DNA from: Ramlibacter sp. WS9
GTDB lineage: Bacteria > Pseudomonadota > Gammaproteobacteria > Burkholderiales > Burkholderiaceae_C
Assembly: GCF_003797765.1 (NCBI RefSeq)
Contig: NZ_RKMB01000003.1
Span: forward strand, 62,001-126,000
Direction of reading: 5' to 3'
DNA length: 64,000 nucleotides
A program made the translations under genes and the position numbers. Below are positions 13,935 through 34,020 of this stretch, one piece after another; the first letter of the stretch is position 1; each line of letters begins with the position of its first letter. The notes below the pieces were generated by a model. It did no database searches. It was not told the DNA's origin and saw only the letters and a list, made by a program, of their open reading frames with translations.

Positions 13935-14010
13935 TTGCTTGTCTCCTTGTTGCGCATCTCTCGCGAGGCGCCCTTCGATGGGTGAATTCTGGTCCGCCAT
14001 CTCGATTAGC

Positions 14011-14042: not shown

Positions 14043-14080
14043 ACTTCGAGATCAACTTGGCGGTACGGCGGAGCAAGACC

Positions 14081-14983
14081 ATGATGACGTTCAAGCAACT
14101 CGAAGCGTTCTTCTGGGTTGTGCAGGCGGGCGGCTTTGCGCAAGGCGCCAGCAAGCTGCACACCACGCAGTCGGCCGTGTCGAAGCGGGTGCAGGAGCTG
14201 GAGTCGGTGTTTGAGACCCCCTTGTTCGATCGCTCCGCGCACAGGGCGAAGCTCACCGAAAAAGGCGAGGAGATGTTCCTGCTCGCCAAGCAGTTGCTCG
14301 ACCTGCGCGATGTCACGGTGGAACGATTTCAGCGCGCCGAGGTGCTGGAGCGACACGTCCGCATCGGCGTTACCGAGCTCACCGCGATGACTTGGCTGCC
14401 CCGCCTCGTCAGTGCGATCCAAGCCAGGTATCCGCGCGTCATCATCGAACCCCATGTCGACGCAAGCGTCATGCTGCGTGACAAACTGCTTGCCGACGAA
14501 GTGGACCTCATGATCGTTCCGGACGTTTTCGACGATCAACGGTTCCTTTCCAAACGGGTCGGCGTGGTCGAGCACACGTGGATGTGCAAGCCCGGCATGG
14601 TGCGTCGGCGGCACCGGATTCGCATGCAGGAACTCGCGGAACACCGGCTCCTGACCCAGGATGAGCGGTCCGGCACGGGCCAGCTCTACAACCGGTGGAT
14701 GCTCTCGATCGGCATCAAGCCGGAGCACACGGTGTTCAGCACCAGCCTCGTGGCCATGATCGGCCTCACGATCTCCGGCATGGGCATCAGCTACCTGCCA
14801 CGCAAGTGCCTCGCTCCGATGGTCGACACGGGCGCGCTCGAGGTTCTCTCCGTGACGCCTGCCTTACCGGTGGCGCCCTACGCTGCTGTCTGCAAGGGCG
14901 ACCGGCCGAGCAGTCTTGTGTTGTCCATCGCGACGCTTGCGCAAGAACAGTGCGACTTCGGCCGGATCTTCCAGACGGGGTGA
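14081..14983 (+). CDS. LysR-family transcriptional regulator (paralogue of 41202-42125)
   Basis: A 300-residue regulator; translation begins at one of two adjacent ATGs (14081 or 14084). Its HTH reads TFKQLEAFFWVVQAGGFAQGA, followed by LHTTQSAVSKRVQELE. The region from the HTH through KLLADEVDLMIVPD and TWMCKPGM is strongly similar by eye to the regulator at 41202. It is divergent from the AcnX operon and is the probable regulator of it. The two paralogues may recognise a similar operator (see the box at 14011). Confidence 0.92.
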   Translation: MMTFKQLEAFFWVVQAGGFAQGASKLHTTQSAVSKRVQELESVFETPLFDRSAHRAKLTEKGEEMFLLAKQLLDLRDVTVERFQRAEVLERHVRIGVTELTAMTWLPRLVSAIQARYPRVIIEPHVDASVMLRDKLLADEVDLMIVPDVFDDQRFLSKRVGVVEHTWMCKPGMVRRRHRIRMQELAEHRLLTQDERSGTGQLYNRWMLSIGIKPEHTVFSTSLVAMIGLTISGMGISYLPRKCLAPMVDTGALEVLSVTPALPVAPYAAVCKGDRPSSLVLSIATLAQEQCDFGRIFQTG

Positions 14984-15323: not shown

Positions 15324-16691
15324 TCAGTTCGAGTCGGTGCCCGCCCTAGGCGTGCGAAGAGTCACCATCTCTTCTGCCGCGGTGGGATGGATGCCAACCG
15401 TGCGGTCGAAATCGATCTTGCGCGCCCCACTCTTCATGGCGATGGCTACGCCCTGCATGATCTCGGGCGCATCGCGACCCACCATGTGACAGCCCACGAC
15501 GCGCTGCGACTCGCGCTCCACGATCAACTTCATCATCGTGCGCTCGGACCGGCCGGACACCGTGTTCTTCAAGGGTTTGAAAGCAGTCTGGTACACGTCG
15601 AATGCCAAGCCGTCGCGCGCCGCGTCCTGTTCCGTGACGCCGACACAAGCGACTGGCGGCTGACTAAAGACAGCGCTGGGCACATCGTCGGCGCGATACC
15701 AGAACGGCACGCCGGCAAACAGGGAGTCGGCCAAGGAGCGCCCTTGCGCGATCGCCACTGGCGTGAGGTTGACCTGGTCCGTGACGTCGCCGACGGCGTA
15801 CACGCTGGACACCCGCGTGCGGCAGGCCTCATCGATCGGAATGGCGCCGGAGGGGCCGAGCACGACGCCAATGTCTTCGAGCCCAAGCGAGGCCGTGTTC
15901 GGTTGACGCCCGGTCGCCGCCACGACCGCGTCGCACGCAAGGGTCGAAACCGCAGTAGCGACCAGAAGGCGATTGCCGTCCGAGCGCTTCACGGAACGCA
16001 CCGGCTGATTCAACACGATGCGGATGCCGCGCGCCTTCATCTGCTCGTACAAAGCAGCCTGCACGTCGGCATCGAAGCCGCTCAACAGGCTGGGGCCGCG
16101 CGCCAATACCGTGGTACCCGACCCGAGTCCATTGAGGATGCCGGCGAATTCCGAGGCGATGTAACCGCCGCCCACAATCACCACTTCATCGGGAAGCTCG
16201 GGCCAAGCAAAAAGATCGTCGGAGGTCTGGAACAGATCCGATCCCGCAACATCCGGCACGACCGGCCGCGCGCCAGTCGCAATGAGAATGTGCTCGGCGG
16301 TGAGCGTGCTGCCGCCAACCTGCACCGTGTGTGCGTCCACCAGGCGCGCAGCGCCGCGCACCAACTCCACTCCGGCATCCCGCAGCATGCTTTGGTAGAG
16401 CCGCTCCAGGCGCGCCACTTCGCCTGCCTGCTGGGCCTGCAACACCGCCCAGTCAAAGCGGCCCTCCATCTTCCAGCCGTAGCCGGGCCCGTCGTGCAAC
16501 GCATCGGCGAACTCGGACGCATACATGAGGATCTTCTTGGGCACGCAGCCCCGGATCACACAGGTGCCACCGACCCGGTCTTGTTCGCAGATGGCCACGC
16601 GCGCGCCGTGGCTCGCCGCCCGGCGCGATGCAGCCACGCCGCCGGATCCGGCGCCGATGGTGAGCAGATCGTAATGGTAGCGACCGCTCAT
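15324..16691 (-). CDS. gor: Glutathione-disulfide reductase
   Basis: A 455-residue FAD-dependent reductase. It has the N-terminal FAD motif TIGAGSGGVAASRRAA (residues 11-26), redox-active Cys44 and Cys49 in GGTCVIRGCVPKK, the second nucleotide-binding motif GGGYIASEFAGILNGLG near 175, and the C-terminal HPTAAEEMVTL that supplies the catalytic His to the dimer partner. It reduces GSSG to GSH with NAD(P)H. It is the last gene of the isoprene cluster run and overlaps the chemoreceptor gene by 4 bp. Maintaining GSH fits a pathway that consumes glutathione in epoxide conjugation. Confidence 0.93.
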   Translation of the reverse strand: MSGRYHYDLLTIGAGSGGVAASRRAASHGARVAICEQDRVGGTCVIRGCVPKKILMYASEFADALHDGPGYGWKMEGRFDWAVLQAQQAGEVARLERLYQSMLRDAGVELVRGAARLVDAHTVQVGGSTLTAEHILIATGARPVVPDVAGSDLFQTSDDLFAWPELPDEVVIVGGGYIASEFAGILNGLGSGTTVLARGPSLLSGFDADVQAALYEQMKARGIRIVLNQPVRSVKRSDGNRLLVATAVSTLACDAVVAATGRQPNTASLGLEDIGVVLGPSGAIPIDEACRTRVSSVYAVGDVTDQVNLTPVAIAQGRSLADSLFAGVPFWYRADDVPSAVFSQPPVACVGVTEQDAARDGLAFDVYQTAFKPLKNTVSGRSERTMMKLIVERESQRVVGCHMVGRDAPEIMQGVAIAMKSGARKIDFDRTVGIHPTAAEEMVTLRTPRAGTDSN

Positions 16692-18145
16692 GCAGCAGCC
16701 AGAGCAGTCTGCGTTGGCGTATGGTCCTCGACCGTGAAGGCCAGCAGCGATTGGTCCAGCGCCGTCTGGTGCTTCTGCAATGCTTTCAAGGCCCTGGCCA
16801 CTTCGGCGGCGAACGACGCGTTCTGCTGGATCGAGCTATCAACGGCCTGCAGCGTAGTGCTGATCCCGCCCAGGCGAACCAGGTCCTGCCGGGCCTGTTG
16901 CGACAACTGGCTCATCAGGCCAGAGGCTCGTGGGGCAGAAGCGAGCAGCTCTTCCAGCGACCGGCCCGCTTCGGCCATCCGCTCGGCACCATGCGCGATC
17001 TGATCGCTTGCCTGCGCAAGCAAGGTCCGCACTTCGACTGCGGAGCGGCCGGCTTGTTCGGCCAGGCGGCGAACTTCGATAGCCGTCTCGGAAAACCCTG
17101 TCTTGTGTTCGCCACCGCGGCTAGCCTTGACTCCGGCGTCAACGGCCAGTACACCTGTTTTTCGCGCGATGGTCTCGACGACCGCGACAGCCTCTCCCAT
17201 GTGCCGCGACTTCTGTTTCAGGCCGTTCATGGTTTCGATTGCCTCGCGCACTATAAGGCCGATCTCCTGCGCCGCGCTCTGCACTCTGCGACCGAAGTCG
17301 TCTGCCTGCATCGTCTGCTCAACGGTCTTTTGCGCACCGCTGGCGAACCGCTGGAGCTCGCCAGTTGCTGTGTGGATGTGGGTGGCGCTGCGTTCGGTGC
17401 GCGTCGATAGATCCGCCGTGCCCGAAGCGATGCTGGCAACCGTCTCGGCAAGGGCCTTGGCCGAAACATCGATTTGGCCGATCGCGCCGCCCAGGCGGCG
17501 CTGCATGCCGATCATGGCCACCTCCATCTCAGAGCGCGGCGAGGCCGACACGCCGGCGGTCGTCTGGATCTTGCCCTGGGCGATGCGCTCGGCCATGTCC
17601 GCCACCTCGAACGACGAAAACACCAGCTTGCGCAGTGCCATCGCAACGTATGACAGAACCAGCGTCTCGGCGCCGCCGACCGCCGCATGAACCCAGAAGT
17701 GCCCCCACAGACCACGGCCGTCGTTGAACACCCACAAGCCCATGCCGCTGGGTTGCAGCAGCACGAACACCAGGTGGTGCAGCGCGATGGCCCCGTAGGC
17801 CAGCACGATCGGCCGCCAGTCGCAGTAGGCCACCAGAACCGCCAGCATGACGAAGAAGCTGAAGTGCGCTTCCAGGTCACCACGTGTCTGCAGGATGATC
17901 AAGCCCGTGAAGATCATGAATGCAACAGCCATCACCATGCGTGAAATCAGCCGCGTGGGGTGCAAGCTGCTCACGTACCAGGGCACAGCCAGCGCTGGGG
18001 CACCGATGAGGAGGGCGAGCAGCCACGTGTTGGTGAAGGGCGCGAATGCGACGCACACGAGAAGGTGCGCCAGCGCGGACCCGAGCGCGAAGCCATGCGC
18101 TCGCTGGTAGAACGCCAGCTCCTTGTTTGGGCGGGGTGATGCCAT
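16688..18145 (-). CDS. Methyl-accepting chemotaxis-like protein with integral-membrane sensor and degenerate tip
   Basis: A 485-residue protein starting at an ATG preceded by AAGGAG. Residues about 15-190 contain five or six hydrophobic helices including the RGDLEAHFSFF segment characteristic of membrane-embedded MCP sensors. A long coiled-coil cytoplasmic part follows. The hairpin tip, normally close to QTNLLALNAAIEAARAGE, here reads KTGVLAVDAGVKASRGGE, so several residues that contact CheA/CheW are changed. It is embedded between a micro-ORF and gor in the isoprene operon. It may sense isoprene or redox state, or may signal through a non-canonical partner. The sensory role is inference. Confidence 0.82.
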   Translation of the reverse strand: MASPRPNKELAFYQRAHGFALGSALAHLLVCVAFAPFTNTWLLALLIGAPALAVPWYVSSLHPTRLISRMVMAVAFMIFTGLIILQTRGDLEAHFSFFVMLAVLVAYCDWRPIVLAYGAIALHHLVFVLLQPSGMGLWVFNDGRGLWGHFWVHAAVGGAETLVLSYVAMALRKLVFSSFEVADMAERIAQGKIQTTAGVSASPRSEMEVAMIGMQRRLGGAIGQIDVSAKALAETVASIASGTADLSTRTERSATHIHTATGELQRFASGAQKTVEQTMQADDFGRRVQSAAQEIGLIVREAIETMNGLKQKSRHMGEAVAVVETIARKTGVLAVDAGVKASRGGEHKTGFSETAIEVRRLAEQAGRSAVEVRTLLAQASDQIAHGAERMAEAGRSLEELLASAPRASGLMSQLSQQARQDLVRLGGISTTLQAVDSSIQQNASFAAEVARALKALQKHQTALDQSLLAFTVEDHTPTQTALAAA

Positions 18146-18170
18146 GCTGTGTACTCCTTGCTTGGATCGA

Positions 18171-18323
18171 TCAACGGGCCGTGGTGCAATACGGCAAGAT
18201 GTCAACAATGGTCACGGGGTTGAGCAACCACGACAGCACCAACGTAGCGGCCAGCCAGACCGCGACCACGACGTGGGCACGTCCGGTGCCGGTTCCAGCC
18301 GCGGCAGCCTGCTGCGGTGCCAT
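18171..18323 (-). CDS. Small (50 aa) single-pass membrane protein, hypothetical
   Basis: An open frame from ATG 18323 to TGA 18171 encodes 50 residues beginning MAPQQAAAAGTGTGRAH, followed by one hydrophobic segment (VVVAVWLAATLVLSWLL) and a short tail containing one Cys. It starts 8 bp after the ompW-like stop and ends 25 bp before the chemoreceptor start, filling an otherwise unexplained gap in a tight operon. I recognise no family. A real small membrane protein is plausible but coding status is unproven. Confidence 0.45.
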   Translation of the reverse strand: MAPQQAAAAGTGTGRAHVVVAVWLAATLVLSWLLNPVTIVDILPYCTTAR

Positions 18324-18331
18324 GGGCGGAC

Positions 18332-18976
18332 TCAGAAGCGGTAGCTCACACCGGCGTGCACCAGCAGGGGGTTGAGCCGCACCGATGCGTTCGCGGGGGC
18401 CGGACCCACCATGCCCGTCGCCGTGGTCTTGAGAAAGATTTTCTTCACGTCCAGGAAAACTCCCCAACGCTTGTCGAGAGGCAGATCGACGCCGGCCTGC
18501 AGCACGCCGCCGAACGCGTTTTTCGCATCCAGCGATGTGATCACGCCGTCTTTAGACGCAAGCACGATGGTGTAGTTGATACCCGCGCCCAGGTATGGCC
18601 GTACCGCGCCCATGCCGTCGAACGCCCACGTCAGCGAGGCCACGGCCGGCCCGTACTTCAGGCGCCCCAGCTCTCCCGCGCCGGCCAGCGGACCGGTGCC
18701 GGTGATCCGCGTCGTCGGCGGCACGCCCACCGTCACGCGCGCGGCCAGATTGGGAGTCAGGTCATACCCGACTTCCAGGCCAAGCGTAGTGTTGCTGCTT
18801 GCGGCCAGGCCCGCGCCCGGAACAGCGGCTCCGCCCAGGCTGACGTCGGCGCTGGTGTGGAACGTCACGTTCACCGGGCCTACGTGGACCCACCAAGGGT
18901 TAGGGCTCTGCGCCAGGGCCAGGCCCGGCAGCATCAGCAAGCCAGCCAGCGCGGCGTTTCTTATGGTCAATTTCAT
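18332..18976 (-). CDS. OmpW/AlkL-family outer-membrane beta-barrel
   Basis: A 214-residue protein with Sec signal peptide (MKLTIRNAALAGLLMLPGLALAQ) and a mature region of alternating beta-strands ending in the outer-membrane C-terminal signature HAGVSYRF. Internal landmarks are TTLGLEVGYDLTPNLAARVTVG and RPYLGAGINYTIV, typical of OmpW eight-stranded barrels. OmpW/AlkL proteins let small hydrophobic molecules cross the outer membrane. It sits 46 bp after isoF, so a role in uptake of isoprene or a related alkene is a reasonable inference. Confidence 0.9.
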   Translation of the reverse strand: MKLTIRNAALAGLLMLPGLALAQSPNPWWVHVGPVNVTFHTSADVSLGGAAVPGAGLAASSNTTLGLEVGYDLTPNLAARVTVGVPPTTRITGTGPLAGAGELGRLKYGPAVASLTWAFDGMGAVRPYLGAGINYTIVLASKDGVITSLDAKNAFGGVLQAGVDLPLDKRWGVFLDVKKIFLKTTATGMVGPAPANASVRLNPLLVHAGVSYRF

Positions 18977-19022
18977 CTCATGTTTCCTCGTTGTGGTCAG
19001 GGGGTGGTTGCCGCTTCGTACG

Positions 19023-20051
19023 TCAGCAAAAGCGGTCATAGAAAACCCGGTCGGCGCGGGCGCGGCCGGTGGCCACCAGCTCGCGCATCGCGTTGTCGAT
19101 GAGCCCGGGCGGGCCCGCCATGTACAGATCACAGGACTGCAGGTCGTCGATGTCCGCGGCGAGGGCTGAGCCTGCCGTGCCTGCCCGGCACACCACCGGG
19201 TCACCAGGCGCCGGGTTCATTAGCACCAAATCAATCTGAAGGTTTGAATGCCGCTGTTGCGCCTGTTCCATCTCGGCCAGCCAGAACAGGTCTTGCGCGC
19301 GGTTGACACCGAAGTACAGCCGCAGTGGGCCTTGCGGTGAGCGCGCCAGCGCTCCCTGGGCAATGGACCAGATTGGCGCAAGGCCGGAACCGCCCGCCAG
19401 CAATACGACATCGCGCTGACTCTCGTGGCGCAGCCAGGCGCGGCCGTACGGTCCCTCGAGATCAAGCCAGTCGCCCGGCTTGATTTGCTCGAAGAAGAAG
19501 CGGCTGGCCGCCCCGCCGGGCTTGCGCTTGATGAGGAACTCCAGCTGGCCAGTGCCTTGCGCAACGTTGGCCATGGAATAGGCGCGGCGGCCAATACCAG
19601 CACCCAGTGCGAACAGCATGAACTGCCCTGGCAGAAAATCCACCGGCTGCTGCGCCTCCAGCACCAGGTGGATGACGTCGGGATTGAGCGTTCGGACGCT
19701 GCGCACAGTGGCGCCCAAGGGCGCGGGCGGCGTGTGCACACGCTCGTCGCCCGCCCGCAGCTTGATGACGCAGTCGCCCTGTGGGATGCTTTGGCAGCAC
19801 AGGATGCGGTCGCCCTTGCGCCGGTCGCGCTCACTCAGTCCTGGCGCATCGGGCCAAAGCGACCCGACTTCACCGGCGGCCAACTGGCCGCGGCAAGTGC
19901 CGCAGCTGCCGCTTGCGCACTCGTACGGCAGGTCGATCCCGGCGGCGAGGGCTGCCGCAAGAAGCGTTTGCCCGGGTGCGCAGGCAAAGCTTCGCCCGTC
20001 AGGCTCCACGCGAACGCGAGCCCCCGGGCCCTCGTGGGCCGAGTTCATCAT
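19023..20051 (-). CDS. isoF: Isoprene monooxygenase NADH reductase component
   Basis: A 342-residue ferredoxin-NADH reductase. The N-terminal plant-type [2Fe-2S] domain has Cys45, Cys50, Cys53 and Cys85 (ECASGSCGTC ... ILCC). The FAD domain has RRAYSMAN (R-x-Y-S) and the NAD domain GGSGLAPI and AGPPGLID. It transfers electrons from NADH to the Rieske component encoded by isoC. The ATG-ATG start at 20051/20048 follows CGGAGA, 22 bp after isoE. Similar reductases serve toluene (TmoF) and alkene monooxygenases; the isoprene assignment rests on the gene cluster. Confidence 0.9.
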   Translation of the reverse strand: MMNSAHEGPGARVRVEPDGRSFACAPGQTLLAAALAAGIDLPYECASGSCGTCRGQLAAGEVGSLWPDAPGLSERDRRKGDRILCCQSIPQGDCVIKLRAGDERVHTPPAPLGATVRSVRTLNPDVIHLVLEAQQPVDFLPGQFMLFALGAGIGRRAYSMANVAQGTGQLEFLIKRKPGGAASRFFFEQIKPGDWLDLEGPYGRAWLRHESQRDVVLLAGGSGLAPIWSIAQGALARSPQGPLRLYFGVNRAQDLFWLAEMEQAQQRHSNLQIDLVLMNPAPGDPVVCRAGTAGSALAADIDDLQSCDLYMAGPPGLIDNAMRELVATGRARADRVFYDRFC

Positions 20052-20073
20052 GGCGGTCTCCGGTGTGGCGGGG

Positions 20074-21105
20074 CTAGTCTTGCGGGCCGAGGCCGGCGTC
20101 GGCGAGGAACGCCAGCCATTGCGTCCCGGCGCGGTCGGCGATGGCGCCTGCCTGCGTGCCCGGCGCGTGGCGCGCGAGCAGGCGGCTGCCGGATTCGAGC
20201 ATGGCCTGCCCGTGCGGGCGCCATTGCGCCAAGTGCCCGCGCAGTACCGCTGCATTGCCTGAATCGGCTTGCACCATGGCCCGGGTGGCATCAGCCGTCC
20301 AGCGGCGGCTGCGCTGCGCGTCGAGGTAGAGGTTCTCGGCGATCATCGCGTCCAGTTCGTCGCCCTGCTCGCGGGCGACGTCGGCGAAAGACTTGAGGAA
20401 CAGTTCATCCGCCACCGGCTTGACGACAAGATTGAGCCCGACGAAAGCCTGGTCCCAATCGAAAGCCAGCAAGAGACTCTCGATGGCCTTCCGGGTGGGT
20501 TGCCAATCGGAATCGGCTTCCCACAGTTGGCGCTCGGCGGCGCCAAACCGGCGCTGGGGATGGGCGTTGGCGAGCTGGCGCGTGCGATACGCCACGCGCT
20601 GCACGCGACGCAATTGGTCCGCCGTCTGGAAGGCCGCGCAGTTGGCCACATAGCTGGAATGCGCCAGTTGCTGCACATAGGCGGTGACCATCTGCAACCC
20701 ATGGCCAAGATAGCGCGTCGGCGCCATGGCCGCTGACAGCAGGTCGAGCGCCGCGGGCGTGAGTGCGGCGTCACTGGCCTGGACCTGGCTGTAATGCTGC
20801 AGCAAGCCGTCGATGTAGGTTTCCTGCTCGTCCATCGCCTGGGTGTACTTGCGATACGTCATCTGGTCTGGATCGCGGAAAGCATCCAGCTTGGCGACCT
20901 TCAGCGCATTGCCGTCGCGGTGCTTCAGCAGCCACTGGTTGCCGTGCACGCCCGGACCCATCTCCAATGGCGTCGCGCCCACCGTGTGGTTCATGTTGTG
21001 GGTGACGATCTCGTACTCGTTCGGCTTGCGGCCGAGCTGGCCGAAGCTCGACCAGGTCTTGGTGCGGCGTGTGCGCAGCTGGGGCACAGAAGGGGTGGCG
21101 GTCAT
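20074..21105 (-). CDS. isoE: Isoprene monooxygenase hydroxylase beta subunit
   Basis: A 343-residue beta subunit of a soluble diiron monooxygenase (TmoE/TouE class). It is a mostly helical ferritin-like protein lacking the full set of iron ligands. Landmarks include RTKTWSSFGQLGRKPNEYEIVTH-type N-terminus, the YIDGLLQHYSQVQ helix and AFDWDQAFVGLNLVVKPVADE. It forms the (alpha-beta-gamma)2 hydroxylase with IsoA and IsoB. It lies between isoD and isoF in the canonical isoABCDEF order. Confidence 0.92.
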   Translation of the reverse strand: MTATPSVPQLRTRRTKTWSSFGQLGRKPNEYEIVTHNMNHTVGATPLEMGPGVHGNQWLLKHRDGNALKVAKLDAFRDPDQMTYRKYTQAMDEQETYIDGLLQHYSQVQASDAALTPAALDLLSAAMAPTRYLGHGLQMVTAYVQQLAHSSYVANCAAFQTADQLRRVQRVAYRTRQLANAHPQRRFGAAERQLWEADSDWQPTRKAIESLLLAFDWDQAFVGLNLVVKPVADELFLKSFADVAREQGDELDAMIAENLYLDAQRSRRWTADATRAMVQADSGNAAVLRGHLAQWRPHGQAMLESGSRLLARHAPGTQAGAIADRAGTQWLAFLADAGLGPQD

Positions 21106-21144
21106 GGTTTGTCTCCGGTCTTTGTTTGCTGGCGGCTGGCGTGT

Positions 21145-21459
21145 TCAGGACTTGAGGTACCAGCGGTATTCCTTGTCGCTGGTCTGCATGCGCCCCGCGA
21201 AAGACGGCATTTCGATCTCCAGCATCGACAGGTCGTAGCTGCGGCCCAGATTTCGCTCAAGGCTGGCGCGGGTGAGCCGGCAATCCATCAGTGTGTGGAT
21301 GTGCAGGTAGTCGCCCCGGTCTGTCACGTACACGTCGCGCCCGGGGTTGTCCTCGGCCACGGCATCGATCACCGCGTCGGCGATGTCGCCGCTGCGCATG
21401 ATGGGGCCGACGGCGTCGTACTCCACCGCGTCGGTCATGAACACTCGTTCTGTCGTCAT
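21145..21459 (-). CDS. isoD: Isoprene monooxygenase coupling/effector protein
   Basis: A 104-residue MmoB/TmoD-type effector, cofactor-free. The segment VGPIMRSGDIADAVIDAVAEDNPG is typical of the family, followed by VYVTDRGDYLHIHT and the C-terminal YRWYL. It binds the hydroxylase and tunes substrate access and electron coupling. The ATG at 21459 overlaps the isoC stop by 4 bp (ATGA), which fixes this start over longer in-frame extensions. Confidence 0.92.
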   Translation of the reverse strand: MTTERVFMTDAVEYDAVGPIMRSGDIADAVIDAVAEDNPGRDVYVTDRGDYLHIHTLMDCRLTRASLERNLGRSYDLSMLEIEMPSFAGRMQTSDKEYRWYLKS

Positions 21460-21815
21460 GCAGTCTCTCCTTGTTCTTCGCTCGGGTCGGTGGACACGAA
21501 CACTTTTCCGCCCTCGATGCGCAGCGCGAAGCGTCTCAGGCATTCGGCTTTGGGGTTGATGCCCTCGCCCGTGCAGGCATCGAAGCTCCATTCGTGGGCG
21601 CGGCAGGTCAACACCTTGCCGTCGAACCGGCCCTCGACCAGCGACACGCTCTGGTGCGGGCAGATGCCGTCGAAGGCCTGCAGCTCGCCGTCGACGTTGA
21701 GGATGAGGACCTCATGCGAGGCGACCTCGAAGCTCTCCATCTCGCCCATCCACAAGTCCTCGACGGCACAGACTTCGACGAACGCCTGCTTGGTAGTGCT
21801 GCTCACTGCCTGCAC
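21456..21815 (-). CDS. isoC: Isoprene monooxygenase Rieske ferredoxin
   Basis: A 119-residue Rieske [2Fe-2S] protein. Cluster ligands are Cys52/His54 (CPHQ) and Cys71/His74 (CRAHEW). It shuttles electrons from IsoF to the diiron centre. The gene appears to start with GTG directly after the isoB stop (21815); a second GTG at 21806 would remove three residues. It overlaps isoD by 4 bp. Confidence 0.93.
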   Translation of the reverse strand: MQAVSSTTKQAFVEVCAVEDLWMGEMESFEVASHEVLILNVDGELQAFDGICPHQSVSLVEGRFDGKVLTCRAHEWSFDACTGEGINPKAECLRRFALRIEGGKVFVSTDPSEEQGETA

Positions 21816-22082
21816 CTACTTGTTCCAGCTGACGGTGACCCACTCCAGGGGCTTGAGGCCTGTCTCGGCCAGCACCTGCAGCAGGGACTGCTCATTGGCG
21901 ACCGTCTTGCCGCCGATCTGAACCCGGTAGCCGGCGTTGCCTGGCGGACGCGGCACGCGCCGGCCGACGCTGTGAACCGCGATCTTCGCGGCCACCTGGT
22001 CCATGGTGTCCTCGGTATCCACCGCCACCAGGTGCGGCACGAAGTCGCCGGCGAACACGCCGTAAACGGGAAATAAAGCCAT
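21816..22082 (-). CDS. isoB: Isoprene monooxygenase hydroxylase gamma subunit
   Basis: An 88-residue ubiquitin-like gamma subunit (TmoB family): MALFPVYGVFAGDFVPHLVA at the start and LQVLAETGLKPLEWVTVSWN at the end. Length matches the usual 80-90 residues. The ATG at 22082 follows AAGGAGA. It is part of the (alpha-beta-gamma)2 hydroxylase. Confidence 0.92.
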   Translation of the reverse strand: MALFPVYGVFAGDFVPHLVAVDTEDTMDQVAAKIAVHSVGRRVPRPPGNAGYRVQIGGKTVANEQSLLQVLAETGLKPLEWVTVSWNK

Positions 22083-22107
22083 GTGCTTCTCCTTGGGGTT
22101 GCGTGCT

Positions 22108-23601
22108 TCACGCGGCTTTGCGTTGAGGCGCCGCGTAGTCGGCAGCCCACTTGTAGGCGAACGCGTCATCGCCCATCACCTCGGGCGTGATGCCCATCCA
22201 CTGCAGGCCGCCCGCCAGATTCATCGGCTGGATCTGGCCGAGCAGGAAGCGGTCGATCACGTTGGTGTGGCCGGCGTAGCGCTCGGGCTCCGTGTCGAAG
22301 ATCCACTTGGACACGTCGGAGTCGAAGTTGTACAGGCGCCCCTTGTACTCGCTGGTGTACATCTTCAAATGATGCCGGTCCCAGGCCGAGCCCAGCGGCA
22401 GCTGCGTGATGTTGCACAGTGCCGGCAGCGTCTCGGGATAGGTCTGCGCCATCTCGCCGTTGTTGACGTTGGCGATGATTTCGTCCCACAGGCCGCCCCA
22501 GCTGTCTTCCCAGTTGGGGTACTTTTCATTGAGCCATTTGCGCTCGGCCTTGGAGACGCCGGCGTTGGGTTTCCAGAACAGGGTGGGCCGCCAGAACCAG
22601 GTGCCGATGTGCATCGCGTGGTGGCCGTGGTCCAGGCATTGCAGGAAGGTCTCCCAGTACCAGGGCTTGGCCAGGCCGAAGTCTTTCATGGTGCGCTCAT
22701 GGTGGTGCACCACCCACTCCATCATGAATTCCTTGAACGACATCTTGCGCTTGGCCACGGGCGTGTAGTAGTCCATGGCCGTGCCGGTGAGCGTCTGGAA
22801 CAGGCGGAACGAACGCCAGAACGACACGTCGAAGATGTACTGCGCACGCTTGGGGTCGTGCTTCATCAGCACTTCGAGCGTGGGAAACCCCAGCTGCGCG
22901 TGGCGCGCCTCGTCGGTCTGGATGCTGGAGAGAAGGTTGGAGAAGTCGATGTCCCCCGCTTCCATGGCATCGGCTGCGAGGGCCACGAACTGGATGTTGG
23001 TGAAGCCGTGCTCCACCACCAGGCTGGTGGCCATCGCCGCTTCAATGCAGTTCGCATTGAGCATCCAGTCGTCGAAGAAGTTCTTGACGGCCAGCACGCC
23101 CCACTCGTTGGTGTGGAAGGCCTTGTTGCACCAGTCGAAGCGCTCGTCGTGTTTCAGCAAATCGTGCGAAAAAGCGAGATCGAGCTGCGCGTGGCGGATC
23201 TCGTCGAGCATGCCGAACACGCCCAGGTTGCGCCAACGCGGCGTGGGGGCAAAACGGCAGAAGCGGCTTTGCATGGTCACGGCCATCTGCTCGACCATGC
23301 AGGTCGTTCCCATGTGCAGCTGCGACGACGCGGTATGGCCCGGGTCGAGCTTGTCGTAGACATTGGCGCGCTTCAAGGCTTCGCGCACCGCATAGGCGCC
23401 GGCCTCCTTCTCGCGCTGCACCCGCACATAGTCGCGGAAGGTCACGCGAAAGGGCTCATCCCACTCGTCCCATGCGGCCTTGGGCACGTTGCCGCCGCCG
23501 GTCCAGGCCTCGGGAAAGGCTTCCTTCTCGTCGACGTACGAGAGCGTCCATTCGACGTCACGGCCGATGTCGTACCAATCGTCTCTGCTGAGCAATGCCA
23601 T
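22108..23601 (-). CDS. isoA: Isoprene monooxygenase hydroxylase alpha (diiron catalytic) subunit
   Basis: A 497-residue catalytic subunit. From the ATG at 23601 (preceded by CAGGAGA) all six diiron ligands fall at the numbering known for toluene 4-monooxygenase TmoA: Glu104, Glu134, His137 (DEIRH), Glu197, Glu231 and His234 (DEARH). It catalyses O2-dependent epoxidation of isoprene to epoxy-isoprene. The distinction from toluene or other alkene monooxygenases rests on flanking isoGHIJ; sequence alone would allow other alkenes. isoA is the usual marker gene for isoprene degraders. Confidence 0.92.
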   Translation of the reverse strand: MALLSRDDWYDIGRDVEWTLSYVDEKEAFPEAWTGGGNVPKAAWDEWDEPFRVTFRDYVRVQREKEAGAYAVREALKRANVYDKLDPGHTASSQLHMGTTCMVEQMAVTMQSRFCRFAPTPRWRNLGVFGMLDEIRHAQLDLAFSHDLLKHDERFDWCNKAFHTNEWGVLAVKNFFDDWMLNANCIEAAMATSLVVEHGFTNIQFVALAADAMEAGDIDFSNLLSSIQTDEARHAQLGFPTLEVLMKHDPKRAQYIFDVSFWRSFRLFQTLTGTAMDYYTPVAKRKMSFKEFMMEWVVHHHERTMKDFGLAKPWYWETFLQCLDHGHHAMHIGTWFWRPTLFWKPNAGVSKAERKWLNEKYPNWEDSWGGLWDEIIANVNNGEMAQTYPETLPALCNITQLPLGSAWDRHHLKMYTSEYKGRLYNFDSDVSKWIFDTEPERYAGHTNVIDRFLLGQIQPMNLAGGLQWMGITPEVMGDDAFAYKWAADYAAPQRKAA

Positions 23602-23632
23602 TTGTCTGTCTCCTGTTATTGGGATTCGGGTT

Positions 23633-25060
23633 TCAGCCACCGAGCTTCACGTTCAGCACCTGGACAGAGGTGTATTCCTCCAGTCCCAGCTGGCCGAGTT
23701 CGACGCCGAGGCCCGAACCCTTGACGCCACCGAAGGGGATGTCCGGGCCCATGGCCGGATGCTGGTTGACCCAGGCACCGCCCGAGTCCAGGCGCGCGGC
23801 CAGACCAGCGGCGTGCTCGATGTCGCTGCCCCACACCGAGCCACCCAGGCCGTATTCGGTCTCGTTGGCCCAGCGCAGTGCATCTTCCTCGTCGTCGTAG
23901 GGTGTGATCGTCAGCACCGGGCCGAAGACTTCTTCCTTCACCACGCGCATTGCGGGTGTGACGTTGGTGAGGATGGTGATCGGCAGGAAGAGGCCAGGGC
24001 CCGCCGGGACCGGGCTGCGGTAGAGCACCTCGGCGCCAGCTTCCAAGGCTTCGTCCACCATCGCGTGGACCAGGTCGTACTGCGCCTTGTTCTGGATCGG
24101 GCCGATGTCCATGCCCTCTTCCATGCCGTTGCCGATCTTCACGGTGGCCGCGAATTTCACCAGCTCTTCGCAGACTTTTGCGTAGACGCTGCGATGCACG
24201 TACATGCGCTTGAGCGCAGCGCACACCTGGCCGCAGTTCGAGAACTTGGCCCAGAACAGGTCTGCAGCGACCTTGGCCGGGTCCGCATCTGCCAGTACGA
24301 TGCCCGCGTCGTTGCCGCCCAATTCGAGTGTCAGGCGCTTGAGGTTGCCGGCTGCGCTGGCCATGATGCGCTTGCCGGTCGGCCCGGAGCCGGTGAAAGC
24401 GATCTTGCGGATGCCAGGGTGCTCGGTCATCCAGGCGCCGAGTGCGTTGCCGCCCGAAACCACATTGACGACGCCGCGAGGGAATACCTTCTGCGCCAAT
24501 TCACCCAGGCGCAAGGTCGCCAGCGGCGTGTAGGGCGATGGCTTGAGCACCACCGTGTTGCCGGCGAGTACGGCAGGCACGATCTTCCACATTGCCAGCA
24601 GCACCGGGTAGTTCCAGGCGGTGATGGCCCCGACGACGCCGAGGGGGCGGCGGCGCAGCTCGACGCGTTGCGTGGCCGTGTCGCGCAGCACCTGCGGCGC
24701 CAAGTCCAGCGCGGCATAGCCGCGCGAGAAGAACACCGCGGAGTTGATTTCGCTCTTGGCCTTTGCCAGCGGCTTGCCCTGCTCGTGGGTGATCAGCGAG
24801 GCCAGCGTCTCCACGTCAGCCACCACCGCTTCGATGAAGGCATTCACGAGGCGCCGCCGCTCTTCGAAAGGCTCTGCACCCCATTTGGTGAAAGCGCGCT
24901 GCGCCGCCTTGACGGCCGACTCGAGCTGCTCGCGGCTGCAGTCAGGCACTGTGGCGAAGGGGGCGGCAGTCGCTGGGTCGATGACTTCCAGCGTGGCGGA
25001 CGCGGTGACGAGCTCGCCGTCGATGGACATGCGGTGCAATGAGAGTTGGGCTGCGGTCAT
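23633..25060 (-). CDS. aldH: Aldehyde dehydrogenase of the isoprene cluster
   Basis: A 475-residue ALDH-superfamily enzyme. Visible residues are Asn150 (AWNYP), Lys173 (VLKPSP), Glu247 (LELGGND), FTGSGPTG near 222 and nucleophile Cys280 (NCGQVCAALKR). Aldehyde dehydrogenase genes occur in known isoprene clusters, where they are thought to help oxidise the glutathione-conjugate aldehyde or other intermediates. It lies between isoJ and isoA, with 50 and 31 bp gaps. The aldH symbol follows literature use for such clusters and is not a specific orthology claim. Confidence 0.9.
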   Translation of the reverse strand: MTAAQLSLHRMSIDGELVTASATLEVIDPATAAPFATVPDCSREQLESAVKAAQRAFTKWGAEPFEERRRLVNAFIEAVVADVETLASLITHEQGKPLAKAKSEINSAVFFSRGYAALDLAPQVLRDTATQRVELRRRPLGVVGAITAWNYPVLLAMWKIVPAVLAGNTVVLKPSPYTPLATLRLGELAQKVFPRGVVNVVSGGNALGAWMTEHPGIRKIAFTGSGPTGKRIMASAAGNLKRLTLELGGNDAGIVLADADPAKVAADLFWAKFSNCGQVCAALKRMYVHRSVYAKVCEELVKFAATVKIGNGMEEGMDIGPIQNKAQYDLVHAMVDEALEAGAEVLYRSPVPAGPGLFLPITILTNVTPAMRVVKEEVFGPVLTITPYDDEEDALRWANETEYGLGGSVWGSDIEHAAGLAARLDSGGAWVNQHPAMGPDIPFGGVKGSGLGVELGQLGLEEYTSVQVLNVKLGG

Positions 25061-25078
25061 GGCTGTACTGCTTGAATA

Positions 25079-25113
25079 GGTGTCAGGTTTCAGGTGTCAG
25101 GTGTCAGGTGTCA
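25079..25113. repeat. Five-unit heptamer tandem repeat at the isoJ 3' end
   Basis: Five consecutive 7-bp units GGTGTCA (the second unit is GGTTTCA) span 25079-25113. The last unit contains the isoJ stop codon. On the coding strand each unit carries TGA, so stops occur in successive frames. Copy number would alter only the isoJ-aldH spacer, which is otherwise about 50 bp. Confidence 0.85.
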
Positions 25114-25830
25114 GGCGGCGGTTGCGGGGGCTGGCGACTTGCCGCCAAATAGCACGTTCCAGGTTTCGTCGGTGTAGTAACTGGTCTTGGCCGCCTGCTT
25201 GGTGGCCTCATCGCGGTCAAGCTTCTTCAATGCCGAGGGCCGCCCGCCAACTGCGTCGCACCAACGCTTGACGTTGGGAAAGTCGTCCAGGTTCACCCCC
25301 TGTCCCTTCGCCACACGCACCCAGGGAAAGACCGCGATGTCGGCGATGGAAAACTCCCCATCGATGTAGTCGCGTCCCGCAAGCTGCCGCTCCAGCACGC
25401 CGTAGAGCCGGGCGGCTTCCCTTCGGTACCGATCGACCGCGTATTCGACGCCGATCCCGCGGTTCGCTGCATGGCTCACGAAGTGCGCGGCTTGTCCGAG
25501 CAGCGGACCTTGGCTCGATGTCTGCCAGAACAGCCATTGAATGACGTTCCAGCGGCGGATCGGATCGGTCGGCACGAGCTTGCCGGTCTTCTCGGCCAAG
25601 TACAGCAGGATGGCGCCCGATTCGAACACCTTGAGCGGCCGACCTCCGGGTCCGTGGTGATCAACCAGGGCCGGTATCTTCCGGTTTGGGTTGATCCTCT
25701 CGTACTCGTCGGTATGCTGATCGCCTGCGCTGATGTCGGTCCACCGAACCTCGTAAGGCAACCCGATTTCCTCGAGCATCATCAACGCCTTGCGGGCGTT
25801 GGGCGACGTGTAGTAGTAGAGCTCGAGCAT
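25111..25830 (-). CDS. isoJ: Glutathione S-transferase, isoprene cluster
   Basis: A 239-residue GST with an N-terminal thioredoxin-like domain (MLELYYYTSPNARKALMMLE, then NPNRKIPALVDHHG with the cis-Pro, and FESGAILLYLAEKTG for glutathione binding) and an all-helical C-terminal domain. In Rhodococcus AD45 the second GST, IsoJ, is thought to act later in the pathway, possibly removing glutathione. It follows isoI by 11 bp. Assignment to IsoJ rather than another GST is by gene order. Confidence 0.88.
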   Translation of the reverse strand: MLELYYYTSPNARKALMMLEEIGLPYEVRWTDISAGDQHTDEYERINPNRKIPALVDHHGPGGRPLKVFESGAILLYLAEKTGKLVPTDPIRRWNVIQWLFWQTSSQGPLLGQAAHFVSHAANRGIGVEYAVDRYRREAARLYGVLERQLAGRDYIDGEFSIADIAVFPWVRVAKGQGVNLDDFPNVKRWCDAVGGRPSALKKLDRDEATKQAAKTSYYTDETWNVLFGGKSPAPATAA

Positions 25831-25841
25831 GGCAACCCCGA

Positions 25842-26558
25842 TCAGATTCCGAACTTGTCCTTCATGCGGCCCATGTAGCCGACCAGGTTCTTCTTCGACC
25901 CCGCGTAGTCCTTGGTGTCGAAGTTGAAGGGCGTGTCGACGATATGGCGCAAGATGGAAAGCACCGGGGCGTCGACCCAGCGAGGCTGGTCACCCATGAA
26001 GAACTTCTTGTCGCCGAGAAAGTTGGACAGCGTGTCAATGTCGGTGCGGGCACGCCGGTAGATCACATCAGCGGGCATGCGGCCCCATCCACCGTTCATG
26101 AACTCGTTGAGGATGCGGAAGCGGAAGTCGTCGGCGAAAGAGCGCAGGCCCGCAGGAACGTCGTCGGTTCCGGCGATGATCCGCAGGTACTTCTCCCAGT
26201 TTTCCGTCTCGCGCCACCGCGGCTGAATCACCGCCACCCAATAGGTGTGTTCGTCGATCATTCGGTTGAAAGCCATCATCGTCGCCTGGTCTTGCGCGGT
26301 GACTCCCTCGCCCAGCTTGTCGCCGTACTTGTCCTTCAGGTACTCGATGATGTGGGTGGAGTCGTTCACCGCCGTGCCATCGGTGTCCACGATGCAGGGC
26401 AGCTTGCCCGCAGGGGTGTCCTTGTCCAGGCGCGTCAGGTCCTGCGGCTTCGTGTCGTACGTCAGCCCCGTCATCTTCATGTAGTACGCCACCTTGGTGA
26501 CATACGGGCTGATGCAGGGCACGGTCCAGGCGGGAAGGTATTGGTAAAGCGTGATCAT
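25842..26558 (-). CDS. isoI: Glutathione S-transferase conjugating epoxy-isoprene
   Basis: A 238-residue GST. The N-terminal domain includes ITLYQYLPAWTVPCISPYVTK, TPAGKLPCIVDTDG and NDSTHIIEYLKDKYG. By analogy to IsoI of Rhodococcus AD45 it would add glutathione to 3,4-epoxy-3-methyl-1-butene, giving 1-hydroxy-2-glutathionyl-2-methyl-3-butene. Its position between isoH and isoJ is canonical. The C-terminal half (FMGDQPRWVDAPVLSIL) is typical of the family. Confidence 0.9.
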   Translation of the reverse strand: MITLYQYLPAWTVPCISPYVTKVAYYMKMTGLTYDTKPQDLTRLDKDTPAGKLPCIVDTDGTAVNDSTHIIEYLKDKYGDKLGEGVTAQDQATMMAFNRMIDEHTYWVAVIQPRWRETENWEKYLRIIAGTDDVPAGLRSFADDFRFRILNEFMNGGWGRMPADVIYRRARTDIDTLSNFLGDKKFFMGDQPRWVDAPVLSILRHIVDTPFNFDTKDYAGSKKNLVGYMGRMKDKFGI

Positions 26559-26603
26559 GGTTGTCTCCTGTCGTTGTGATGCGATGGCGTGGATGACCGG
26601 GGG

Positions 26604-27284
26604 CTACCAGAGCAGCTTGTCCCCGTTGGCGTGGCGAAACTGTCCGGATGCGGCCGGGCTCAACTCGTCCATGCGGGCGATCAACCCGCGTGCCGCATCT
26701 TCCGGCTGGATGTAGTTGTAGTTGCCCGGGTAGTCTTTCGTGAGGTCCGTAGCCACCATGCCCGGGTGCAGCGCGACCACCGAGATGCCCTTCTTGATCA
26801 GGTCGTGGTGCAGGTTCAAGGCGACCATGTTGGCGCCCGCCTTTGAAACCCGGTAGGCGTACATGCCCCCCGAACTGTTGTCGCCCAATGAGCCGACGCG
26901 GCTGGTCACGATGCCAACCTTTGCGTTGGGGCCGAGGAACGGGAAGCAAGCTTCGACCACGCGCAGCGGCCCCAATGTGTTGATCTCGAATTGGCGACGC
27001 ATGTCGTCATAGTCGATCTTGCCGAGCTCGTCCAGGCCGAGCACGCCAGCCACATGCAGAATCCAGTCCAGGCGGACGCCCCGCGAGCGCAGGCCCTCGG
27101 CCAGCTTGGCCACCGCCGGCGGGGATGTCACGTCGATGCCGCCGATCGTGTCGACGCCACCTTCGGTGAAGCCTTCGCCCGCACCCATGCACGCGGCAAT
27201 AACATGCTCACCTCGCGCCTCGAGCTGCCGGCAGATCGCGTTGGCGATTCCACGGTCGGCACCAACCACCAGAATGTTGTTCAT
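26604..27284 (-). CDS. isoH: SDR dehydrogenase for the hydroxy-glutathionyl intermediate
   Basis: A 226-residue short-chain dehydrogenase with the N-terminal cofactor motif VVGADRGIANAIC, HVAGVLG near 85 and catalytic YRVSK (Tyr-x3-Lys). IsoH oxidises the alcohol of the glutathione conjugate in two steps to the acid in the characterised system. The ATG at 27284 follows AAAGGAAG; longer in-frame extensions run into isoG and are rejected. The length equals that of known IsoH. Confidence 0.91.
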   Translation of the reverse strand: MNNILVVGADRGIANAICRQLEARGEHVIAACMGAGEGFTEGGVDTIGGIDVTSPPAVAKLAEGLRSRGVRLDWILHVAGVLGLDELGKIDYDDMRRQFEINTLGPLRVVEACFPFLGPNAKVGIVTSRVGSLGDNSSGGMYAYRVSKAGANMVALNLHHDLIKKGISVVALHPGMVATDLTKDYPGNYNYIQPEDAARGLIARMDELSPAASGQFRHANGDKLLW

Positions 27285-27295
27285 CAGACTTCCTT

Positions 27296-28504
27296 TCAAG
27301 TTTTGTTGCGCAGAGACTCGCTGCCGATGATGCGGGCCGAACGCAGTTCGTTGCGCATGGATTCGGAATAGCCCAGCTCTGCCAGTATCTCGTCGTTGTG
27401 CTGCCCGAGCAACGGCGCGCCGCGCCGCAGTTCGGACGGCGTGCGCTCGAATCGCGCTGGCGAACGGGCTTGGCGCAGGCGACCCGCGGCGGGGTGATCG
27501 ACCTCGACAATCGTTTCCGACGCCAGCACCTGCGGATGGCGGATCACTTCGCTGCGCGTGAGTGCCGGCGCACACGGCACGTCGTGCGCTTCCAGGCACT
27601 CCATCCATTCGCCCGTGGTGCGCGTTTTGAGCACCTCTTGCGTCATGAGGAGACGCTCGTTCACGTGGCTGTCGCGTGCCTTCGGGGTGGCGAAACGGGC
27701 GTCGGCAAGCCATTCGGGCTTGTCCAAGGCCTTGGTGAGTCCGACCCATTCCTTGTTGCTCATCACGGCCACGGTCATGTGCCCGTCCTTGGTTTCGTAA
27801 ATCAGGTCGATGAAGCTGGCGGCTTCCTGGTTGCTCATGGTCTTGTCAGGGTATGTCTGCGCGCCCATGTCCGAAGCCCACAGGAAATAGAGCACGGAAT
27901 CGAGCATCGAGATCCGAACGTGCTGCCCTTCGCCCGTGCGGTGCCGCGAGACCAGCGCGGCCGACAGCGACTGCGCCACCGTCACGGCCGCGAGCTTGTC
28001 GGGCAGCACAGTGCGGATCAGGCGCGGCCGCTCGCCGTCGGAGCCGGCCTGCACTGTCGTCAGTCCCGAGATTGCCTGAATGACAGGGTCGTACACCGGC
28101 TTGCCGACCCAGGGGCCGACATCGCCAAAGCCGCTGATGGATGCATAGATGATGTTGGGGGCGACGGCGCGGATGTCGGCCTCGCCCACACCGAGCCGGT
28201 CCACGACGCCCGGGCGGAAGTTCTGCATGAAGACGTCCGCTCCTTTGGCCAGGTCCAGCACGATCTGGCGGCCTTGCGGGTTCTTCACGTCCACGCTGAC
28301 CGAGCGCTTGTTGCGGTTGATGTTCAGGAACATCGCCGACATGCCGGCGCGTTGGTTGCCGAGCGAGCGCACATGATCGCCGGCTTCGGGAACCTCGACC
28401 TTGATCACGTCGGCGCCCTGATCCGCCAGGATCATCGCCGCCCAGGGGCCCGACAGCATCGTCGTCATGTCGATGATGCGAATGCCGGCTAAAGGTCCAC
28501 TCAT
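27296..28504 (-). CDS. isoG: CaiB/BaiF-type CoA transferase, first gene of the isoprene operon
   Basis: A 402-residue family III CoA transferase. The catalytic Asp is Asp139 in VYDPVIQAISG, and the N-terminus ILADQGADVIKVEVPEAGD is diagnostic. IsoG is proposed to attach CoA to the glutathionyl-butenoate so that glutathione can be removed and the carbon skeleton oxidised. The ATG at 28504 follows TGGAGA. It heads the run of 15 genes to 15324 and is divergent from a LysR gene. Confidence 0.9.
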   Translation of the reverse strand: MSGPLAGIRIIDMTTMLSGPWAAMILADQGADVIKVEVPEAGDHVRSLGNQRAGMSAMFLNINRNKRSVSVDVKNPQGRQIVLDLAKGADVFMQNFRPGVVDRLGVGEADIRAVAPNIIYASISGFGDVGPWVGKPVYDPVIQAISGLTTVQAGSDGERPRLIRTVLPDKLAAVTVAQSLSAALVSRHRTGEGQHVRISMLDSVLYFLWASDMGAQTYPDKTMSNQEAASFIDLIYETKDGHMTVAVMSNKEWVGLTKALDKPEWLADARFATPKARDSHVNERLLMTQEVLKTRTTGEWMECLEAHDVPCAPALTRSEVIRHPQVLASETIVEVDHPAAGRLRQARSPARFERTPSELRRGAPLLGQHNDEILAELGYSESMRNELRSARIIGSESLRNKT

Positions 28505-28549: not shown

Positions 28550-28671
28550 ATGACTTGTTTCGTTTGGCTGGATCGAATAGTAGGTTGGCCATGAAAAACG
28601 TACTAGACCAAAATTTGAGGATTCAAAGTACGGTTAAAGTGGACAGTCAAAGCAATGCAGGAGATGGCGAA

Positions 28672-29604
28672 ATGATCAAGGAGCTTTACCGGATGGCCGT
28701 GTTCGCCGAGGTCGTGGAGCACGGCTCCTTTTCCAAGGCGGCGACCACCTTGGGTCTTGGGAAATCGATCGTGAGCGCGCATGTGGCCGCGCTCGAAAAG
28801 CGCATCGGCGCGCAGTTGCTCACGCGCAGCACGCGTGCGCTTTCGCTTACTCAGGAGGGGGTTGCGTTCTACGAGAACTGCAGGCGCATGGTGGCCGCCG
28901 GCGAAGATGCGTTCACGACGGTGGAATCAAGGCGTGTCAGCGTCAGCGGAACGATTCGCCTCACCTCTTCGTACAACGTCGGCGTGAGCTTCCTGATCGC
29001 GGCGCTGGCGCGATTCAAGGACGCGTACCCGGACGTGTCATTTGACCTGGTCCTGGAGGACTCCATATCGCATGTCATCGAGGAAAGGTTTGACCTCGCG
29101 GTGCGCGTGGGGCGCCTCCCGGACACGGGTCTCTTTGCCTCCCAGCTTGGCAACTGCTCAATGCTGCTGTGTGCAGCGCCGTCGTTCGTGCGGCGCCACG
29201 GGAAGATCACCAAGCCTGAAGAACTGGCCAAGGTGCCTTGGGTCACCATTACCCAGCTGCCTCACCCGGAGAAGCTTCATCTCGTACATCAGAAGACGGC
29301 ACAGCGCCTGACGGTTGGCATTCATGGCGCTGTCAAGACTCATTCCGGCATCGCTGCGCGGGAGTTCGTTCGTTGCGGAACCGGGGTGGGCCTGCTGCCT
29401 GACTACGCGGTGCACGGTGACCTGTCCAAGGGCGACCTGATCCGCATTCTGCCGGCCTGGAACGAAGCGAATGATCGCCCGATCTCAGCCGTGTTTCCGA
29501 GCCGGGACCGCATACCTACCCGAGTCAGGCTGCTCATCGATTTTCTGCGCGATTCACTGAACCCATCCGGGACTGGAAACGCCGATACAGGCAGCCGCCG
29601 ATGA
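28672..29604 (+). CDS. LysR-family regulator (CrgA/AaeR-like), divergent from the isoprene operon
   Basis: A 310-residue LysR protein. I chose the ATG at 28672, preceded by AGGAGA; in-frame upstream starts exist at 28591 and 28507. The HTH reads YRMAVFAEVVEHGSFSKAA and the next helix KSIVSAHVAALEKRIG, which places it in the CrgA-like branch. Its divergent position 167 bp from isoG suggests that it controls isoprene catabolism; known isoprene degraders induce iso genes on the epoxide. Its last 51 bp overlap the end of the convergent LysR gene. Confidence 0.9.
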   Translation: MIKELYRMAVFAEVVEHGSFSKAATTLGLGKSIVSAHVAALEKRIGAQLLTRSTRALSLTQEGVAFYENCRRMVAAGEDAFTTVESRRVSVSGTIRLTSSYNVGVSFLIAALARFKDAYPDVSFDLVLEDSISHVIEERFDLAVRVGRLPDTGLFASQLGNCSMLLCAAPSFVRRHGKITKPEELAKVPWVTITQLPHPEKLHLVHQKTAQRLTVGIHGAVKTHSGIAAREFVRCGTGVGLLPDYAVHGDLSKGDLIRILPAWNEANDRPISAVFPSRDRIPTRVRLLIDFLRDSLNPSGTGNADTGSRR

Positions 29605-31882: not shown

Positions 31883-31903
31883 CGCGGCGACGGAGCAAAA
31901 GCC

Positions 31904-34011: not shown

Positions 34012-34020
34012 CGGAATTCC

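Follow-up and report, generated by a model that had tools for sequence, protein, structure and literature searches.

The 64,000-nucleotide window analysed here, from Ramlibacter sp. WS9 (genome of 6,980,851 bases), holds an isoprene-degradation (iso) operon of 14 probable genes, all on the minus strand, running from isoG (ATG at 28504) through to gor (stop at 15324). Few Gram-negative bacteria that degrade isoprene, one of the most abundant biogenic volatiles, have been brought into culture. The explanation that we favour, with a probability of about 0.85, is that the window carries the iso operon of WS9 with a divergent LysR gene and a 27-bp element upstream of it, and that to the operon have been added an AlkL-like outer-membrane barrel, a protein derived from a methyl-accepting chemotaxis protein (MCP) and a glutathione-disulfide reductase (gor) of its own. 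The order along the minus strand is isoG-isoH-isoI-isoJ-aldH-isoA-isoB-isoC-isoD-isoE-isoF, followed by ompW, mcp and gor, so that isoABCDEF and isoGHIJ lie together in one run, as an earlier note on this DNA, made from the letters alone, had proposed. The locus is almost certainly the already published iso cluster of this strain: WS9 is an isolate from willow soil that grows on isoprene (PMC6908491), and its iso cluster appears, by the legend, in Figure 1 of PMC7143210 and is treated alongside Figure 3 of PMC6908491. Since WS9 is thus a cultured isoprene degrader with its cluster in print, the pathway itself is not new.

Profile models back 11 of the 14 genes (those for IsoG, IsoH, IsoI, IsoJ, AldH, IsoA, IsoE, IsoF, OmpW, MCP and gor), while IsoB, IsoC and IsoD were assigned via tblastn matches to known clusters with the same gene order; the genes lie at the positions first proposed. 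The assignment to an isoprene pathway of Gram-negative layout is upheld, with IsoH and IsoI exceeding isoprene-specific equivalog cut-offs. Counting WS9 in each case, IsoI exceeds its cut-off in 1 of 398 genomes of a phylum sample and in 3 of 299 of a family sample; the absence of an IsoA match at E 1e-100 among 397 genomes of one family, which we guess to be the Sphingomonadaceae, carries no weight. By analogy with the family, for which these steps are established, and going here by sequence, IsoABCDEF would convert isoprene to its epoxide, IsoI would add glutathione to the epoxide, IsoH would oxidise the conjugate, and IsoG, IsoJ and AldH would take the carbon onward to CoA intermediates.

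IsoA has all six diiron ligands at exactly the residue numbers that the earlier note had given (Glu104, Glu134, His137, Glu197, Glu231 and His234). That note had also held that clustering of IsoA with toluene or benzene monooxygenases would speak against its reading, and once aligned and placed in a tree IsoA does not cluster with them. In a tree of 16 rows, five of which are toluene-type or related alpha subunits, the WS9 protein joins those of Variovorax sp. WS11 and two Comamonadaceae metagenome-assembled genomes (MAGs) with support of 99/99, and all IsoA rows, together with XamoA of Xanthobacter, form a 100/100 clade apart from the five, to which IsoA is 45-50% identical. Assignment as a toluene/benzene monooxygenase was rejected on this placement outside the toluene-type clade and this level of identity. 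The WS9 and WS11 proteins are 92.2% identical, the value in print being 92% (PMC7143210).

Spacings of -4 to 50 bp separate the genes at twelve junctions, the single exception being ompW-mcp, where the gap is 186 bp, contrary to the proposal that no gap exceeds about 50 bp. A 50-aa membrane open reading frame (ORF) in this gap, which had been counted as a fifteenth gene, is not supported as one. It has no Pfam match and no credible relative in the family sample of 299 genomes; weak non-self matches in two of them (G597 and G654) were dropped because their coding contexts are unrelated. Shuffling the gap 5000 times gave an ORF at least as long in 271 cases, and of 5000 random 186-bp pieces from the window 186 held one. 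As the ORF is not distinguishable from chance, the total is 14 probable genes. The 46-bp spacing between isoF and ompW and the 4-bp overlap of mcp with gor would agree with a single transcript. The 7 terminators predicted between 14.9 and 29.2 kb fall short of the mean of 10.5 in shuffled sequence and were not used.

Control of the operon probably involves the LysR-type gene that diverges from isoG. Its product is 72% identical to the LysR protein encoded upstream of isoG in WS11, 70% to that in a Comamonadaceae MAG and 61% to that in a Polaromonas MAG. It is the counterpart of the WS11 gene, which is probably dmlR_4; divergent dmlR genes were already noted by Dawson and others (PMC7143210). 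Its identity to the LysR proteins of two alphaproteobacterial iso loci is 39%. Two iso loci from Rhodospirillales MAGs (L044 and L045) have a LysR gene, about 39% identical, that diverges from isoH, with isoG lying beyond it; isoJ is partial in the former and on the opposite strand in the latter. Between lysR and isoG, an alignment of four Comamonadaceae clusters has 16 identical columns out of 30 in a conserved element, whereas none of 60 shuffles gave more than 7. A pattern derived from this element matches once in the whole window. Because the pattern was built from the four-cluster alignment, its matches in those clusters arise by construction and only the shuffle test counts as evidence. 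We propose the 27-bp block as a candidate operator of the iso operon, on which the LysR protein may act to start the iso transcript. With a candidate operator at hand upstream of isoG, LysR regulation of the iso genes becomes directly testable.

The genes beyond isoF had been proposed to form a module for uptake, sensing and redox supply that is co-expressed with the pathway. In part this stands: gor is a credible redox partner, its counterpart garB being induced in WS11 (PMC9804861). Sensing through the MCP-like protein is weakened by the degenerate state of its kinase-control tip and methylation sites, the 50-aa ORF drops out, and a standard four-gene module is not supported, as neither ompW nor mcp was found in the other iso loci examined. 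Neither gene gave a tblastn match (1e-3) in 10 other IsoA loci, seven of which extend some 10 kb downstream from isoA (those of WS11, Polaromonas, a Comamonadaceae MAG, two Rhodospirillales MAGs, Rhizocola and Rhodococcus jostii), the other three being short (L043, L046 and L049). On this result we rejected the idea of ompW-mcp as a standard component of Gram-negative iso clusters. A search of the literature, as far as accessible, found no link of OmpW or of chemotaxis or MCPs to isoprene degradation or isoprene monooxygenase, and OmpW, outer membrane and chemotaxis are not mentioned in the main texts of PMC6908491, PMC7143210 and PMC12917321, the figures of which may show such genes. The legend to the cluster figure of a paper on Sphingopyxis OPL5 defines 'omp', and an outer-membrane gene near iso genes may therefore have been drawn before.

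Judged by its sequence, ompW-mcp-gor is a strain-level variant, combining gor, a partner of known type that was probably newly recruited, with a plausible uptake barrel and with a chemoreceptor relic or rewired sensor. The alternative that the three genes are unrelated downstream passengers outside the isoprene response appears rather unlikely. It would account for the lack of matches to ompW and mcp in the other iso loci examined, for the 186-bp gap between ompW and mcp, and for the use of isoprene by WS11 with neither gene in its cluster. However, the three genes share the strand of the iso genes and are closely spaced at isoF-ompW (46 bp) and mcp-gor (-4 bp), other Gram-negative clusters also carry gor, which in WS11 is induced, and the barrel is of the hydrocarbon type.

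Among solved structures, AlkL is nearest to the WS9 OmpW protein (106.7 bits), followed by OmpW (61 bits). An OmpW-family gene also stands behind a related diiron monooxygenase operon in Ancylobacter polymorphus pA, a similar gene annotated as two pieces is present in Xanthobacter dioxanivorans, and on the alkene plasmid pXAUT01 of Xanthobacter Py2 an OmpW-family gene lies about 17 kb from xamoA. A paralog of the barrel at 52% identity, elsewhere in the WS9 genome, has a Fer2/FAD/NAD reductase gene and a Rieske oxygenase alpha-subunit gene 5-7 kb away. The likeness to AlkL and these contexts make a hydrocarbon link reasonable, and a role as an uptake barrel for a hydrophobic substrate, the entry of which it would most likely ease, is plausible. 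In a plasmid search, all 169 records matching OmpW were below 60% identity, with no close relative among them.

The gor product exceeds the cut-off of NF004776 (555.7 against 480), scores below that of TIGR01424 (560.3 against 606) and has the CxxxxC redox pair (GGTCVIRGCVPKK); it would recycle glutathione. Gram-negative iso clusters carry gorA/garB (PMC12917321, PMC7271495), and garB is reported to be up to 205-fold higher on isoprene in WS11 (PMC9804861). The iso-cluster copies of WS9 and WS11 are 43% identical to each other, a lower value than either shows with a non-cluster gor (50% and 45%). Given that the best-matching WS9 and WS11 copies outside the clusters are 70% identical, and that the Iso proteins of the two strains are 58-92% identical, the iso-cluster gor was likely recruited separately in the two. 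Repeated recruitment, if that is what occurred, as is probable, would mean that glutathione recycling is in demand in iso clusters, yet is not supplied by one inherited part.

The MCP-like protein aligns with Escherichia coli Tsr from residue 174, and does so free of gaps from residue 275. In the tip region (Tsr 366-404) 18 of 39 residues are identical, compared with 25-38 (median 37) in 34 control rows. The 30 control MCP loci are the best 30 of 166 matches in 21 genomes, two of them duplicating paralogs from WS9 itself, and being best matches they are biased to canonical tips. Across the 11 distinct tip strings of the controls 25 columns are invariant; the MCP-like protein keeps 13 of these and has lost 12. 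Relative to Tsr the losses include Q374, N376, L380, N381, A383, G393, R394 and V398, and among the substitutions are F373R, N381D, E385K, R394T and V398E; the lost residues presumably include trimer and CheA/CheW contacts. Of the methylation sites, which we take to be Tsr 297, 304, 311 and 493, three are lost (Q297R, E304T and Q311R) and Glu493 is kept. Four other WS9 MCPs among the matches listed score 142-193 bits with PF00015, against 65.6 bits for the MCP-like protein (a value from a separate protein scan, outside the cut-off list that gave the others); three of them, on contig C116, have tips at 37/39 and the fourth, PilJ-like by eye, is at 25/39. As an MCP, the protein thus passes PF00015 and lacks the canonical tip for CheA/CheW contact and the canonical methylation sites.

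The N-terminal membrane sensor domain, which no Pfam family covers, is preserved, keeping 33 of the 37 residues that are invariant in five relatives (cut by hand out of open frames). When the first 215 residues alone were used to search the family sample of 299 genomes, the nearest matches were three apparent hybrid histidine kinases (49-52%); frames some 470-570 aa long hold weaker matches (26-39%). In another relative, an MCP (L073) that has the same kind of sensor domain, at 46% identity, keeps 22 of the 25 tip invariants. The domain, with its E-x-HFS and HH motifs, is common to apparent hybrid kinases, a GGDEF protein and an MCP (L070-L074). All 3535 records that matched the MCP-like protein in a plasmid search were below 60% identity, so that no close relative was seen there, and an AlphaFold model built without relatives has a mean predicted local distance difference test (pLDDT) score of 57.3.

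The protein thus pairs a conserved sensor domain with a degenerate MCP hairpin as its output, and ordinary chemotaxis signalling is unlikely in view of the loss of 12 of 25 tip invariants and three of four methylation sites. Most likely, the protein is a former chemoreceptor that has kept its membrane sensor and lost normal control of CheA, and that is either on its way out or working via another partner. We regard as improbable a specific version of the latter, in which the protein is a non-chemotactic sensor dedicated to the iso operon, with a membrane domain that still reads isoprene, epoxide or membrane state and an altered hairpin tip that signals to a new partner (e.g. the LysR protein), or in which it couples the output of barrel and reductase to the substrate load. 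That it is a working chemoreceptor guiding WS9 to isoprene, akin to the proposed alkane receptor AlkN, is very unlikely: the PF00015 score (65.6 against a cut-off of 34.6 bits), the gap-free hairpin alignment and the position of mcp beside an AlkL-like gene, alkN being a predicted MCP, would suit such a role, but the tip and methylation-site losses do not, and nor does the comparison with the four other WS9 MCPs listed, which score far higher with PF00015 and three of which have near-complete tips.

Several observations weigh against our overall explanation. The tip of the MCP-like protein (18/39) is still nearer to Tsr than is the flanking hairpin (15/63), Glu391, Arg388 and Glu493 are retained, the strain's own PilJ-like MCP is also only at 25/39 (one of three control rows at 25), and the mcp frame is open and overlaps gor, unlike a dead gene. 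With respect to the barrel, AlkL brought no significant gain in the use of hexane (PMC5376172), which makes help with a C5 volatile doubtful, and WS11, which outgrows WS9 on isoprene (PMC7143210), has no ompW in its iso cluster, which speaks against import of isoprene by the barrel. A tree of seven gor rows has no supported branch, so that the case for separate recruitment is one of identities, and fast divergence of one copy is a possible alternative. A promoter scan between 14.9 and 29.2 kb gave no site, a result that is uninformative because even isoG gave none.

XamoA of Xanthobacter Py2 (L003:8001-9494) nests within the IsoA clade (95/98), and the propene enzyme looks as if it were derived from the isoprene enzyme; at two columns it differs from every IsoA row in the tree, having I100 and L196 where IsoA, that of WS9 included, has T100 and V196. 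That the WS9 enzyme is a Xanthobacter-type propene/alkene monooxygenase and not an isoprene monooxygenase, as its 71-72% identity to XamoA and the nesting of the latter might suggest, is scarcely credible given those two columns, the presence of isoGHIJ-aldH with two isoprene-specific equivalogs among them, the growth of WS9 on isoprene (PMC6908491), and the 2-hydroxypropyl-coenzyme M (CoM) lyase of the Py2 locus, no CoM gene being found among the families in the WS9 cluster and the ten neighbours scanned (the genome as a whole was not searched).

The features of the locus are collected in Table 1. Downstream of the iso operon lie a gene for an AcnX-type aconitase (12693-14012; PF04412, 475 bits) and, on the opposite strand to it, a LysR gene (13907-14983). 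Upstream of the cluster is a separate run on the plus strand (30554-35951) coding for an amidohydrolase, two TctC-type receptors, a porin and a class IV aminotransferase.

Table 1. Features of the iso locus of Ramlibacter sp. WS9, in window coordinates; percentages given for isoG to isoF are identities to the WS11 counterpart.
Feature	Position	Strand	Basis and remarks
LysR-type regulator, divergent from isoG	28672..29604	+	PF00126, PF03466; start taken as Met56 of the longest ORF, the point at which homology sets in
Conserved 27-bp element, candidate operator/promoter	28619..28645	-	Between lysR and isoG; alignment of four Comamonadaceae clusters
isoG	27296..28504	-	Family III CoA-transferase/racemase type; PF02515 373.5 bits; 84.5%
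isoH, HGMB dehydrogenase	26604..27290	-	NF049951 equivalog 381 bits, cut-off 350
isoI, isoprene-epoxide glutathione S-transferase	25842..26558	-	NF049950 equivalog 398.5 bits, cut-off 300
isoJ, glutathione S-transferase	25111..25830	-	PF13409 and others; 77%
aldH	23633..25060	-	PF00171 500.7 bits; 80%
isoA, monooxygenase alpha subunit, 497 aa	22108..23601	-	PF02332; tree; diiron ligand columns
isoB, gamma subunit	21816..22082	-	73%
isoC, Rieske ferredoxin	21456..21815	-	58%; CPH and CRAH Rieske ligands in translation; GTG start, exact start uncertain
isoD, coupling protein	21145..21459	-	80%
isoE, beta subunit	20074..21105	-	PF02332 194.6 bits; 73%
isoF, Fer2/FAD/NAD reductase	19023..20051	-	PF00111, PF00970, PF00175; 61%
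ompW, OmpW-family AlkL-like outer-membrane barrel	18332..18976	-	PF03922 102.3 bits, cut-off 24
50-aa ORF, probably not a gene	18171..18323	-	No credible relatives; chance level about 4-5%
mcp, MCP-like protein, 485 aa	16688..18145	-	PF00015 65.6 bits, cut-off 34.6; overlaps gor by 4 bp
gor, glutathione-disulfide reductase	15324..16691	-	NF004776 555.7 bits, cut-off 480

Compared with known systems, the WS9 locus shares with that of Variovorax sp. WS11 (plasmid pVarWS11_iso) the isoGHIJ-aldH-isoABCDEF order, the divergent LysR gene, the 27-bp element and a gor behind isoF, but in WS11 no ompW, mcp or 50-aa ORF was found, and gor, 43% identical to that of WS9, follows directly after isoF. In the Polaromonas MAG (L042:12519-14558) and a Comamonadaceae MAG (L050:12700-14502) the iso cluster stops after isoE and the next gene is on the opposite strand; isoF and gor were not found within about 8 kb past isoE, and in the rest of either genome the closest match to isoF reaches only 33% identity. 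Rhodococcus sp. AD45 likewise has isoABCDEF and isoGHIJ, but there isoGHIJ is present in duplicate, aldH does not lie between isoJ and isoA, and gshAB and marR genes occur (PMC7143210). The Burkholderiaceae hybrid histidine kinases (L070-L072), so named from reading their sequences, have an N-terminal sensor domain 49-52% identical to that of the MCP-like protein, but a kinase and receiver output in place of the MCP hairpin. The alk operon of Pseudomonas putida GPo1, which was compared without the AlkN sequence, resembles the WS9 locus in having an OmpW/AlkL barrel (alkL) and an MCP-type gene (alkN) linked to a hydrocarbon oxygenase system; its oxygenase AlkB is not, however, a soluble diiron monooxygenase. 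In WS9 the occurrence of an MCP, decayed or else rewired, close to an AlkL-like barrel poses a small puzzle as to how hydrocarbon operons gain genes for uptake and sensing.

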